Source: Pseudomonas sp. SCB32 (GTDB lineage Bacteria; Pseudomonadota; Gammaproteobacteria; Pseudomonadales; Pseudomonadaceae). From it: DNA of 64,000 nucleotides. Positions 20,579 through 43,837 of this stretch are shown here, one piece after another. Within the stretch, counting starts at the first letter, position 1. Each line of letters starts with the position of its first letter. The notes beneath the pieces are model-generated. The model was given only the letters and a program-made list of their open reading frames with translations. It was not told the origin of the DNA and did no database searches. The stretch spans positions 3,844,001 through 3,908,000 of the forward strand of contig NZ_CP045118.1 of the NCBI RefSeq assembly GCF_009189165.1, given 5' to 3'. Made by a program: the position numbers and the translations under genes.

Positions 20579-22432
20579 TCAGCCGGCGGGCAGGCGTTTG
20601 AGCCGCCGCCACAAGGTCGTCTGGCTGATGCCTAGGTATTCGGCTGCCTGTCCCTTGTTACCGCCGAACAGTTGCAGCGCCTTGACGATCTCCTCCTGCT
20701 CGACGTGGTGCAGGTGTCCTCCGGCCTCAGACTCCGTCTGAACCGCTGCATACAATTCCGGAACGACACGCGGCAGCGACTCGACCAGGGTTTCCCAACT
20801 GCCGTAGAGCTTCTGCGAAACGATCAGACGCTCGATCACGTTCTCCAGCTGACGCACGTTGCCCGGCCAGTGGTACCGACGCAGCACCGGCGTGACGCCT
20901 TTGATCAGCTCTTCCAGCGCCAGCTCGATCCCGTAGCGCTGCGACTCCCGGCGCATCAGGTAAGTCGCCAGCACCGGGATGTCCTCGGGGCGCTCGCGCA
21001 GTGGCGGGATGTAGATGGCGAAAGTGCTGATGCGGTAGTAGAGGTCTTCGCGGAAGCGTCCGGCGCGCACCTCGTCCATCAGGTCGACGTTGCAGGCGGC
21101 AACGAACTTGATGTTCAGAGCAATCGAGCGCCGCGAGCCGACCGGACAGACCTCGCGCTCCTGCAGCACGCGCAGCAGCTTGGCCTGCTGCGGCAGCGGC
21201 AGCGAGTTGATCTCGTCCATGAAGAAGGTGCCGTTGTTGGCGCTTTCCAACAGACCCGAGCGACCGCCGCTCTTGGCACTGGTAAAGGCGCCCTCGGCGT
21301 AGCCAAACAACTCCGACTCGAACAGATCGGCTGGAATTGCCGCGCAGTTGATGGCGACGAAAGCGCCCTTCGCGTTCGCGCTGGCGGCATGCACCTGACG
21401 TGCTGCCAGCTCCTTGCCTGTGCCGGTCTCGCCGCGCAGCAGTACAGTGCCAGGGGTCGCACCGTAGACACTGAGCTGATTATGCACCTCAGCCATGCGG
21501 CTGGACTGGAACACCAGCCGGCGGCCGTCGTCCTGGGCGATAGGCAGCGGGCTGGGGACAAAGGTGTAGAGTGAGCCAACGCACTCTCCTTCGACCTCAA
21601 AGGGCTGCTTGTGCAGGCTGCACAGGCGCTCGCCAACCAGGAGGCCCTCGGCGCGCAGGCTGCTCGCTTCGATCAGCTTGGCGTCGATCACCAGGTCCAA
21701 GCGCCGGCGCCGCGGCAGGTTGGGAATCAGTGCCGCGGCCAGGGCGTTCCAGGCCACTGCCATGCCGCTGCGATTGGTCAGCACCTGGGGTTGCGGGCTC
21801 TGTTCGAGCAGGAATTGGCCGAGCTGCAATTGTTGGGTCTGTCGTTTGTGCAGACCGGCGTGGCGCACCGCTTTGCGCAGCAGGTTGCGGCATGACTCGC
21901 GGGAGTAGATGAGCACAGAATCGAGGCCCCACTGCTCGGCCAGGTCACAGGCATAGCTGGAGCCGATCACCACCCCGAAACCTTCGTTACGCACGCTATG
22001 GAACACCTCCTTGGCGTGCTCGGCCGTGCTGTAGGTGTGGCGGGTGATGTCCAGCCCTTCGAAAAGACTGAGCAGTTCGACGTTGGCTTCCTGACGCTGG
22101 TAGGTCAGCAGCAGGATGCGCGAGGAAATACGCCGAGCAGTGATTACCGCCTGGATCAGGTCCGCCTGCTCGACTTTCAACGCCAGCACTGGGATTGGCA
22201 GAGTGTCCTGCAGGTAGAAGGCGTTGGCGCCGGCGCTGACGAAGATGTCGACCTGCTGGCGTTCGACCAGGTCACGGGCGGCACGCACCGCATCGTTGAA
22301 CAGATTGTCGATGATGGTGATGCTGGCAACCGCTTCGAACTCGGGGATCAGGCTGTGCACGATCTGGCTGAGTTTCGAGTTGCCGATCAGGCAGATTCGC
22401 ACCCGATCCTGTTCTGCGTTGGAGAACTCCAC
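20579..22432 (-). CDS. PrpR-like sigma-54-dependent transcription activator
   Basis: A 617-residue enhancer-binding protein. Residues 10-190 are a PrpR-type sensor domain (ICLIGNSKLSQIV on). The AAA+ domain has Walker A GETGTGK (334-340), the sigma-54 contact loop as GAFTSA (381-386, consensus GAFTGA) and Walker B GTFFMDE near 402. A Fis-type helix-turn-helix (GNKGQAAEYLGISQTTLWRRL) ends the protein. PrpR sensors bind small carboxylates such as 2-methylcitrate. It is the last gene of operon 1, 38 bases after the leuD-like gene. Two sigma-54 promoters with paired upstream sites lie in front of the two operons, so it is probably the master activator of the island. Confidence 0.92.
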   Translation of the reverse strand: MEFSNAEQDRVRICLIGNSKLSQIVHSLIPEFEAVASITIIDNLFNDAVRAARDLVERQQVDIFVSAGANAFYLQDTLPIPVLALKVEQADLIQAVITARRISSRILLLTYQRQEANVELLSLFEGLDITRHTYSTAEHAKEVFHSVRNEGFGVVIGSSYACDLAEQWGLDSVLIYSRESCRNLLRKAVRHAGLHKRQTQQLQLGQFLLEQSPQPQVLTNRSGMAVAWNALAAALIPNLPRRRRLDLVIDAKLIEASSLRAEGLLVGERLCSLHKQPFEVEGECVGSLYTFVPSPLPIAQDDGRRLVFQSSRMAEVHNQLSVYGATPGTVLLRGETGTGKELAARQVHAASANAKGAFVAINCAAIPADLFESELFGYAEGAFTSAKSGGRSGLLESANNGTFFMDEINSLPLPQQAKLLRVLQEREVCPVGSRRSIALNIKFVAACNVDLMDEVRAGRFREDLYYRISTFAIYIPPLRERPEDIPVLATYLMRRESQRYGIELALEELIKGVTPVLRRYHWPGNVRQLENVIERLIVSQKLYGSWETLVESLPRVVPELYAAVQTESEAGGHLHHVEQEEIVKALQLFGGNKGQAAEYLGISQTTLWRRLKRLPAG

Positions 22433-22470
22433 GATTTACCCCTTTTCTTGTTATTGGGCAGGTATCCGAG

Positions 22471-23109
22471 CTATCGGCGATAGACCCAAGGCTCGCTACG
22501 CCGTCGCTGTGCTTCGTAGGCCCGAATCGTGTCGGCGTGACGCAGCGTCTCGCCAATCTCGTCCAGGCCGGCCAACAGGCTCTGGCGGCGGCCCTCGTCC
22601 AACTCGAAGGTCCAGTGCCGCCCCTCGACTTCAAGCAAGCGTCGCGGCACATCGATCCGCGCGACCATACCGCTGCCGGGCTCCGCCATCTGGAACAGTA
22701 CATCGATATCCGCCTGTGGCAATGGCAGCGGTAACAGTCCATTGTTGAAGCAGTTGTTGCGGAAGATGTCGCCGAAACTCGGGGCTATCACCACCCGCAC
22801 GCCGAAATCGCGCAGCGCCCAGACCGCGTGCTCGCGGCTGGAGCCGCAGCCGAAATTGGCCTGGGCAAGCACGATGCTGCCACGGTCATAGGGTGGCTGG
22901 TTGAGGATACAGGCGGGGTTGGGGCGGCGGCTCTGCGGCGGCGTATCGACCTCGCCGGGGTCGAGGTAGCGCTCGTCGTCCATCAGGAAGGCACCGAAAC
23001 CGGAGGCTTCCAGGCTCTTCAGGTACTGCTTGGGCAGCAACACATCGGTATCGATGTTGGCGCGTTGCAGGGGAATCACCACGCCTTCGTGGGTAGTCAG
23101 TGGTTGCAT
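22471..23109 (-). CDS. LeuD-like hydro-lyase small subunit
   Basis: A 212-residue aconitase-family small (swivel) subunit. NIDTDVLLPKQYL near the N-terminus and the substrate-binding FGCGSSREHAVWAL block are intact. It pairs with the LeuC-like gene 2 bases upstream to form a 3-isopropylmalate dehydratase-type enzyme. Its place in a catabolic operon with CoA-transferase and lyase genes suggests hydration of a citraconate-, maleate- or dimethylmaleate-type acid rather than leucine synthesis; that is inference. Confidence 0.9.
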   Translation of the reverse strand: MQPLTTHEGVVIPLQRANIDTDVLLPKQYLKSLEASGFGAFLMDDERYLDPGEVDTPPQSRRPNPACILNQPPYDRGSIVLAQANFGCGSSREHAVWALRDFGVRVVIAPSFGDIFRNNCFNNGLLPLPLPQADIDVLFQMAEPGSGMVARIDVPRRLLEVEGRHWTFELDEGRRQSLLAGLDEIGETLRHADTIRAYEAQRRRSEPWVYRR

Positions 23110-23111
23110 GC

Positions 23112-24524
23112 TCAGAGGCTCCTGATATCGACCAGCTCGCCGGCGATCGCTGCCGCTGCCGCCATGGCGGGCGACAGCAGGTGGGTTCGTCCTCCCCTGC
23201 CCTGGCGACCTTCGAAGTTACGGTTGGAAGTAGCCGCACAGCGCTCGCCGGGCAGCAGCCGGTCGGCGTTCATGCCCAGGCACATGGAGCAGCCCGGCGC
23301 GCGCCATTCGAAGCCGGCGGCGATGAATATCCGGTCGAGTCCTTCGCGTTCGGCCTGCAGGCGCACTAGGCCGGAGCCCGGCACCACAAGGGCCTGGCGG
23401 ATGCGGCTGTGGAGGCGGCGGCCGTGCAGTACCTCGGCGGCGGCGCGCAGATCCTCGATGCGGGCGTTGGTGCAGGAGCCAATGAAGATCCGGTCGATGG
23501 GTACACCAGCCAGCGATTGGCCTGCCTGCAGGCCCATGTAGGCCAGCGCGCGCTCCCAGTCCAGGCGCTGGATGGCGTCGCGCGCCTGATCAAGGTCCGG
23601 GATGCGCTCATCGATCGGCACCACCATCTCCGGCGAAGTGCCCCAGGTCACCTGTGGGCCTATGTCGGCACCCTGGATCAGCAGCTCGCGCTCGAACTGG
23701 GCGTCGGTGTCGCTGCGCAGGCTGCGCCAGTAGTGCGTGGCTTCCTCCCACTGCGCGCCCTGCGGTGCCATCGGCCGGCCGCGCAGGTAGGCTTCGGTAA
23801 TCTGGTCGTAGCCAATCAGCCCGACCCGCGCGCCGGCTTCGATGCTCATGTTGCACAGCGTCATCCGCGCTTCCATCGACAGGTTATCGATCACCGCGCC
23901 GCTGTACTCGATCGCATGTCCGTTGCCGCCGGCCGCGCCGATGCGGCCGATGATGTAGAGCGCGAGGTCTTTGGCGGTGACACCCAGCGGCAGCGCGCCA
24001 TCGACCCGCACGCGGAAGTTCAGCAGCTTGCGTGAGCGCAGCGTCTGGGTCGCCAGGACGTGTTCGACCTCGCTGCTGCCGATACCATGGGCCAGGGCTG
24101 CCAGGGCGCCGTGGGTGGCCGTGTGGGAGTCGCCGCACACCAGGGTCATGCCCGGCAAGGTCAGCCCCTGTTCGGGGCCGACCACATGGACGATGCCCTG
24201 GCGCAGGTCGTCGAGGGCGAACAGCGGGATGCCGAACTCCCGGCTGTTGCGCTGCAGGGTGTCAATCTGGAGCTGGGCGATCCTGTCACCGACCCCGCCG
24301 ATGCCCAGCTCGCGGCCCAGGGTCGGCACATTGTGGTCGGGGGTCGCCAGGCTGGTGTCCAGCCGCCAGGGCCGGCGGCCGGCCAGGCGCAGATTGGAGA
24401 AGGCTTGTGGCGAGGTCACCTCGTGCAGCAGATGGCGATCGATGTACAGCAGGCTGGAACCATCGGGCAGGTCCTCGACCCGGTGACGGTCCCACAGTTT
24501 GTCGTAGAGCGTCTGTGCTCCCAC
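23112..24524 (-). CDS. LeuC-like hydro-lyase large subunit
   Basis: A 470-residue aconitase-family [4Fe-4S] subunit, equal in length to LeuC. Cluster cysteines are in GSCTN and [25 protein letters not shown] is also typical. The chosen start is GTG at 24524, which has GAGGAA 6 bases upstream and gives the standard N-terminus [12 protein letters not shown]; an ATG at 24590 would add 22 unrelated residues. It acts with the LeuD-like subunit. The enzyme is probably a catabolic hydratase of a branched dicarboxylate, given the operon. Confidence 0.9.
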
Positions 24525-43644: not shown

Positions 43645-43712
43645 GGTGCCTCCTTGTCTAGCGCCATGCCTGAAGCACATACGGCATGGCTGTTGTTGTT
43701 CCTCCTGTGATA

Positions 43713-43728
43713 GCAAGACTATTGCCAA
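43713..43728 (-). promoter_or_regulatory. Sigma-54 (-24/-12) promoter of operon 2
   Basis: On the minus strand it reads TTGGCAATAGTCTTGC, with GG and GC 12 bases apart. It agrees with the operon 1 promoter at TTGGCAA and CTTGCT. Confidence 0.78.
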
Positions 43729-43804
43729 CTCCTGCGGGGAAGGCTAAGCACTTGTCATGCAATGAGTTTTTTTTGAATGGCAGACGGCTTGCTCGCCCGC
43801 TCAA

Positions 43805-43837
43805 TTCAATCTGTAACGTTCGCTATTCAATAAGAAA
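43805..43837. promoter_or_regulatory. Candidate upstream activator sites for operon 2
   Basis: TTCAATCTGTAA (43805-43816) and TTCAATAAGAAA (43826-43837) are 21 bases apart and start about 77 bases upstream of the -24 element. They resemble the pair before operon 1. Confidence 0.45.

Follow-up and report, generated by a model that had tools for sequence, protein, structure and literature searches.

Catabolic control by sigma-54 together with an activator that carries a PrpR_N domain is already known; what is new is the variant that we describe here. In Salmonella, prpBCDE needs PrpR, RpoN and integration host factor (IHF), according to the title of a work cited in PMC3844500. In Escherichia coli, prpR is divergent from prpBCDE, and the prpR-prpB region contains, as judged by eye, several TGAAAC half-sites and a -24/-12 element (TGGCACACCCCTTGCT). 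We analysed a 64-kb stretch of DNA from Pseudomonas sp. SCB32 (bases 3,844,001-3,908,000 of a single-contig genome of 6.31 Mb), referred to as the window, in which two adjoining catabolic operons occupy positions 20579-43837 on the minus strand (Table 1). Operon 1 (37961-20579) comprises 13 genes if a small lipoprotein open reading frame (ORF) is included, and operon 2 (43644-38210) comprises four. Together they very probably form one catabolic regulon under a single PrpR-like activator, as judged from sequence comparisons. This activator resembles E. coli PrpR in its PrpR_N-AAA+-Fis architecture and in a closely similar recognition helix. Its gene lies inside operon 1, whereas E. coli prpR is divergent from its targets, and it differs from the PrpR systems of E. 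coli and Salmonella by a predicted additional PAS-like part, by its target genes and by missing the PrpR equivalog cut-offs. A literature search, which covered the literature largely by title, yielded no account of this regulon.

Both operons are preceded by a -24/-12 element with GG-N10-GC spacing, and upstream of each lies a tandem pair of 13-bp palindromes of the type TTTCANNNTGAAA. The operon-1 sites are 19 bp apart and match the consensus in ten (38126-38138) and nine (38107-38119) of ten positions, while the operon-2 sites, 21 bp apart, match it in eight positions each. The gap between the proximal site and the TGGCA of the core is 85 bp in operon 1 and 76 bp in operon 2. An earlier note on this DNA, made from the sequence alone, had reported both promoter elements on the minus strand, site pairs 19-21 bp apart upstream of them and a PrpR-like sigma-54 activator gene closing the island. 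Re-reading of the sequence, consensus scoring and the detection of PrpR_N, sigma-54 AAA+ and Fis helix-turn-helix (HTH) domains bore out all three observations, which are correct and above chance; the counts of 13 and four genes were also right, the thirteenth being the lipoprotein gene.

The motif TTGGCAN6TTGC occurs 18 times genome-wide versus five times in a reversed control, and a -24/-12 match by itself is therefore only moderate evidence. The pattern TTNCNNNNTGAA-N5-10-TTNCANNNTGAA had two matches in the 6.31 Mb, both at these promoters, versus none in the reversed control, and within the window pairs with a spacing of 19-21 that score at least 16/20 were found at these two places only. 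As the pair pattern was composed after the sites had been seen, the independent test is the comparison with relatives. The genome encodes RpoN (one Sigma54_DBD match).

Relatives were collected by a HyuB search of genome contigs, of which the best 80 of 129 matches were kept. Among the relatives listed, the operon is kept in Pseudomonas, Halopseudomonas, Stutzerimonas, Dokdonella, Rhodanobacter, Marinobacter, Alloalcanivorax and Vreelandella, and wherever the locus is long enough its last gene is the activator gene. For the promoter searches, 22 of the 25 loci L017-L041 were used (L027, L035 and L040 were omitted). All 22 of these relatives' genomes contain the CoA-transferase gene and 17 the racemase gene; the five without a racemase match are all Marinobacter. 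In 20 of 23 genomes (window and 22 relatives), a TGGC[AC]N7TGC core and a pair scoring at least 16/20 were found upstream of the CoA-transferase gene. In the remaining three (Dokdonella L106, Rhodanobacter L107 and L118), a racemase gene lies closely upstream and carries core and pair instead; these loci and their duplicates L128-L130, in which the CoA-transferase gene directly follows the racemase gene without a core of its own, were left out of the CoA-transferase pair score. The racemase set likewise omits L106, L107 and L118 (duplicates of L129, L128 and L130, respectively; L118 is also cut short), and rows L136 (a second copy in genome G031, 59% identical) and L137-L140 (31-34% identity) were dropped from it. 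Upstream of the racemase, the core was present at 18 of 19 genes, and the accompanying pair scored at least 15 in 17 of those 18 and at least 16 in 14. By comparison, dinucleotide shuffles reached 16 in 0.25% of 800 cases for the CoA-transferase and in 0.14% of 720 for the racemase, for which 1.0% reached 15, and the core appeared in 0.2% of letter-shuffled upstream ends.

The surrounding promoter sequence is diverged in the more distant loci: the likeness between the window and Marinobacter L108 was 0.50 (shuffled 0.50), and that between the window and Alloalcanivorax L109 was 0.49 (shuffled 0.46). Pseudomonas loci still resemble the window in this region (0.66 for L097, 0.56 for L104), so they are not independent. 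The gap between proximal palindrome and core falls into classes, namely 85-87 bp in ten Pseudomonadaceae CoA-transferase promoters and 100-103 bp in ten others, and 65-66 or 73-79 bp at racemase promoters, with 45 bp in L124. When all pairs scoring at least 17 were collected from 40 loci (684 kb, overlaps counted), the resulting 21 rows represented 20 places, every one of them upstream of a CoA-transferase or a racemase gene. These data bear on the possibility that only operon 1 is under sigma-54 and this regulator, with operon 2 under other control, so that the two would not be one regulon. The imperfect operon-2 sites of the window and the five Marinobacter genomes without a racemase match fit such a division; against it stand the core at 18 of 19 racemase genes and the pairs of at least 15 at 17 of those 18, and we consider divided control highly unlikely.

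A rearranged version of the locus was found in nine complete loci (L042-L046, L048, L049, L052 and L055) from Alteromonas, Aliiglaciecola, Paraglaciecola, Rheinheimera and a member of the Alteromonadaceae; the regulators of L035 and L047, which are cut off by contig ends, were dropped. Here the regulator, 35-39% identical to that of the window, is encoded by the first gene, ahead of the genes for CoA-transferase, 3-hydroxy-3-methylglutaryl-CoA (HMG-CoA) lyase-type lyase (HMGL), HyuA and HyuB. Further downstream, eight of the nine loci have an isochorismatase match and four have LeuCD; in L042, the single locus examined in this respect, a TonB receptor gene is inserted between the regulator and CoA-transferase genes. 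All nine carry TGGCAN7TGC and a pair scoring 18-20/20 ahead of the regulator gene. Eight loci have a gap to the core of 99-101 bp and the ninth has one of 74 bp; the site spacing is 19-21 in eight. None of 900 letter shuffles reached 18 at a spacing of 19-21. The same site is therefore found with a regulator that has diverged and with genes in a different order, and core and paired sites follow the first gene of the operon through three different gene orders.

The activator itself is the sole PrpR_N match in the genome. Its PrpR_N (Pfam, residues 34-197), AAA+ (about 305-540) and Fis HTH (about 573-614) domains score over the Pfam cut-offs. In the linker (residues 198-306) no Pfam family was matched over its cut-off, the best for the window protein being MLTR_LBD; a weak PAS match was seen in the Alteromonas-type relatives only. 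An AlphaFold2 model (mean predicted local distance difference test score 83, predicted template modelling score 0.53) shows a long helix at residues 178-210, followed at 216-293 by two strands, helices and three strands, which we take to be the order of a PAS fold. Mainly on the basis of this strand and helix order, residues about 216-293 are described here as PAS-like. The residues that we assume to form the Fis recognition helix read SQTTLWRRLK in the activator and SRTTFWRRLK in E. coli PrpR, with eight of ten residues equal. Could the protein simply be an ordinary PrpR that senses 2-methylcitrate, with the two operons as propionate accessories? The PrpR_N domain would fit this, as would propionyl-CoA if it were a product of the cleavage proposed below. 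However, the protein remains below both PrpR equivalog cut-offs (456.9 versus 499.2 for TIGR02329, 428.6 versus 703 for NF011953), the PAS-like part predicted from the model is additional, and no prpBCDE genes were found among its neighbours in the island, the rest of the genome not having been searched for them. A role as ordinary propionate regulator thus defined appears very unlikely to us.

The regulator also travels with the operon. In a survey of 298 genomes of the family, that of strain SCB32 included, the regulator was found in six and HyuB in seven genomes (E below 1e-150), and all six genomes with the regulator also have HyuB, at a distance of 3.1 kb by coordinates. The seventh HyuB genome is 81% complete and has HyuB at a contig edge. 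None of the 24 further genomes that belong to the genus yielded a close HyuB (best match 33% identity), and the island is therefore patchy and was probably acquired. Both promoters might still be sigma-54 dependent and driven by another activator encoded elsewhere, with the PrpR-like gene controlling something else; the genome does contain 21 other strong sigma-54 activator matches. Against this, the site pair occurs in this genome only at these promoters, the regulator accompanies HyuB in all six family genomes that have it and again in the Alteromonas-type arrangement, and PrpR has similar half-sites and a similar recognition helix. Control by another activator is in our estimation very unlikely. 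The earlier note had connected the promoters and sites with this regulator as an inference only; comparative evidence, from phylogenetic footprinting and from the co-occurrence of regulator and operon, now strongly supports this connection.

Several observations weigh against the single-regulon interpretation. Besides the eight of ten matches in each operon-2 site of the window and the 21 other activators, the shuffle controls ignore the kinship of the loci, which matters for the similar Pseudomonas promoter regions. The second racemase copy, L136, is the only one without a core; racemase pairs are poor in L131 (14/20) and in L121, L122 and L127 (15/20 each); the distal CoA-transferase site of L110 and L112 matches only 6/10, at a spacing of 22; and the pair of the Alteromonas-type locus L048 is spaced by 29. 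Tandem 13-bp palindromes of this type are absent from E. coli prp. In the activator, the GAFTGA loop reads GAFTSA (residues 381-386), and in 20 of 30 relatives the fifth position of the loop is not glycine (GAFTSA, GAFTHA, GAFTNS or GAFTSS). This is odd because the GAFTGA loop contacts sigma-54. Finally, the IHF matches in the window are weak, namely 8/9, overlapping the core, and 7/9. In favour of the regulon, 10 of 38 promoters match the IHF consensus (WATCARNNNNTTR) 9/9 in the 60 bp ahead of the core versus 1.0% of shuffles, and 28 of 38 match it in at least eight positions versus 15% of shuffles.

Taken as one regulon, the island probably works as follows. A small-molecule signal would bind the PrpR_N and/or PAS-like part of the activator, which would bind, probably as two dimers, to the two TTTCANNNTGAAA palindromes that lie 19-21 bp apart ahead of each -24/-12 element, at a distance of 76-85 bp from it. 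Probably assisted by IHF bending, it would then drive sigma-54 polymerase open at both promoters. The activator gene begins 38 bp past leuD, and a simple scan of 20300-25200 detected no sigma-70-like site; it is therefore probably co-transcribed with operon 1. Being the last gene of that operon, its activation would raise the level of the regulator itself, a positive feedback. The predicted products are an Ame-type hydrophobe efflux cassette, two old-yellow-enzyme (OYE)-type reductases, a racemase-family enzyme and the ring opener HyuAB, together with an amidase, a LeuCD hydratase, a CoA-transferase and an HMG-CoA-lyase-type lyase.

Table 1 Features of the two operons and their promoter regions in the window. 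Likeness to Ame proteins refers to PMC6394551.
Feature	Position	Strand	Remarks
Distal site of tandem pair, operon 2 (TTTCTTATTGAAT)	43825..43837	-	
Proximal site of tandem pair, operon 2 (TTACAGATTGAAT)	43804..43816	-	
Putative sigma-54 -24/-12 promoter, operon 2 (TTGGCAATAGTCTTGC)	43728-43713	-	GG-N10-GC spacing
Asp/Glu/hydantoin racemase-superfamily gene, operon 2	42898..43644	-	Pfam PF01177; GTG start after AAGGAGG; nearest solved structures hydantoin and allantoin racemases
SnoaL-like protein, operon 2	42482..42871	-	Pfam
OYE/FAD fusion (NCR, trimethylamine dehydrogenase, 2,4-dienoyl-CoA reductase type), operon 2	40285..42414	-	
Second OYE/FAD fusion, operon 2	38210..40288	-	top NCBIfam hit is mycofactocin OYE-2, which falls short of the cut-off
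Intrinsic-terminator-like stem and T-run after operon 2	38164..38187	-	9 pairs, 7 G-C
Distal site of tandem pair, operon 1 (TTTCAAGCTGAAA)	38126..38138	-	
Proximal site of tandem pair, operon 1 (TTTCACATTGAAT)	38107..38119	-	
Putative sigma-54 -24/-12 promoter, operon 1 (TTGGCAAGATGCTTGC)	38022-38007	-	GG-N10-GC spacing
Class III CoA-transferase, operon 1	36762..37961	-	nearest solved: formyl-CoA transferase, succinate-HMG CoA-transferase
HMG-CoA-lyase-type lyase, operon 1	35838..36758	-	nearest solved: HMG-CoA lyases
YCF48/BNR beta-propeller, AmeC-like, operon 1	34862..35845	-	domain match; PMC6394551
MMPL/RND transporter, AmeD-like, operon 1	32466..34865	-	domain match; PMC6394551
DUF1302 protein, AmeA-like, outer membrane, operon 1	30787..32469	-	domain match; PMC6394551
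DUF1329/LolA-like protein, AmeB-like, periplasmic, operon 1	29510..30769	-	domain match; PMC6394551
Hydantoinase/oxoprolinase A subunit (HyuA), operon 1	27374..29452	-	
Hydantoinase/oxoprolinase B subunit (HyuB), operon 1	25515..27368	-	
Isochorismatase-family amidase, operon 1	24921..25511	-	nearest solved: N-carbamoylsarcosine amidohydrolase
Small putative lipoprotein, thirteenth gene of operon 1	about 24569..24937, start uncertain	-	lipobox LVLLAGC
LeuC-type hydratase large subunit, operon 1	23112..24590	-	true start probably downstream of 24590
LeuD-type hydratase small subunit, operon 1	22471..23109	-	
PrpR-like sigma-54 activator, last gene of operon 1	20579..22432	-	PrpR_N, PAS-like part (model), AAA+, Fis HTH

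A simple scan found eight terminator-like sites between the operons versus 3.9 in shuffles, the stem at 38187-38164 being the longest. In 21 of the 25 loci L017-L041, the lipoprotein ORF is situated between the genes for the amidase and for LeuC.

Among solved structures, HyuB is nearest to N-methylhydantoinase, followed by 6yra (labelled Hydantoinase), which we take to be a caprolactamase. The next match of the amidase, after the one given in Table 1, is 3ot4/3uao, presumably the maleamate amidase NicF, and LeuCD matches isopropylmalate dehydratase models. Caprolactamase CapAB of Pseudomonas jessenii opens its ring in an ATP-dependent reaction (PMC6061476). CapAB and N-methylhydantoinase share the HyuA/HyuB family with the window, whereas HyuAB of the window, unlike CapAB, is coupled to LeuCD, CoA-transferase and HMG-CoA-lyase-type genes. 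An identity as caprolactamase was rejected (scores 491.7 and 207 versus a cut-off of 1000, NF050156/NF050157), as was long-form bilirubin reductase (NF045599) for the OYE protein encoded at 38210-40288 (341.3 versus 750); of the two OYE proteins, this is the one that the NCBIfam scan covered.

The efflux genes have a counterpart in the AmeABCD cassette of Castellaniella defragrans, which consists of DUF1302, DUF1329, COG4447 (YCF48-type) and RND components and is tied to monoterpene metabolism in PMC6394551. The same four parts stand together in the window, but in the order C-D-A-B instead of A-B-C-D and beside HyuAB and other genes of the island rather than monoterpene genes. A plasmid locus of Acidiphilium multivorum (NZ_CP041720, L002) similarly clusters HyuAB, isochorismatase genes, LeuCD, CoA-transferases and two HMGL genes; it differs by an annotated GntR regulator and two polysaccharide-deacetylase-family genes, and neither a PrpR-like gene nor an Ame cassette was found in the 42 kb of that locus.

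Judged by their enzyme families, the gene products together probably break down a nitrogen-containing cyclic amide, imide or ureide. A lactam, imide or ureide ring would be opened, ammonia released and a maleate-type diacid hydrated; CoA transfer would then activate the product, and an HMG-CoA-lyase-type enzyme would cleave it. From chemical reasoning on the enzyme families, it may be speculated that the regulon is an aerobic pathway for alkylated maleimide-type rings, for example hematinic acid or methyl-ethyl-maleimide from tetrapyrroles, a substrate assignment that we regard as a long shot. HyuAB would then open the imide, and the isochorismatase-family enzyme would act as a half-amidase and yield 2,3-dialkylmaleate. 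Hydration by LeuCD would turn this into an alkylmalate, which in the case of hematinic acid would be a methyl-homocitrate-like triacid, and CoA-transferase and HMGL would split the alkylmalate into a 2-oxoacid (2-oxoglutarate) and propionyl-CoA. The activator would be a PrpR whose inducer has drifted from 2-methylcitrate to a methyl-homocitrate-like analogue; a drift to such a close analogue would explain the recruitment of a PrpR_N sensor.

A survey of selected flanking genes for a clue to the substrate (20 proteins; L057, L058, L064, L083 and L050) gave no clear substrate. A FAD_binding_4 oxidase gene follows the amidase gene in L058 (11178-12764) and another follows an OYE gene in L166. In L166 (8706-12311) and L003, an S-adenosylmethionine (SAM) methyltransferase gene stands beside HyuAB or OYE genes together with a FAD-binding oxidase gene. 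The recurring oxidase and methyltransferase may hint at the substrate.

Positions 44789-55172 (minus strand), immediately upstream of operon 2, hold a quinohemoprotein amine dehydrogenase cluster with genes for the alpha and gamma subunits, a radical SAM protein, a subtilase and an ABC transporter; its near end encodes a FAD_binding_3 protein. What may be the remnant of a reading frame, interrupted by a stop codon, was seen by eye at 44022-44318 (minus strand), also upstream of operon 2. Elsewhere, contig 11 of genome G028 (L173, L177; Pseudomonas violetae TNT19; 484,685 bases) carries the regulon, and its ends overlap exactly by 88 bases; it may be a circular replicon. On this contig, the racemase gene is about 475 kb from the CoA-transferase gene, and as the contig is possibly circular this apparent case of a scattered regulon was not used.

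The comparisons define a clade of PrpR_N regulators that has a DNA site of its own and whose target regulon is conserved among Gammaproteobacteria, ranging over Pseudomonas, Rhodanobacter, Marinobacter, Alloalcanivorax, Vreelandella and Alteromonas. The activator is encoded inside its own presumed target operon, as the last gene in one lineage and as the first in another. As promoter and regulator are clearly marked, they can be used as a reporter to find the inducer, which makes the substrate of the pathway testable.

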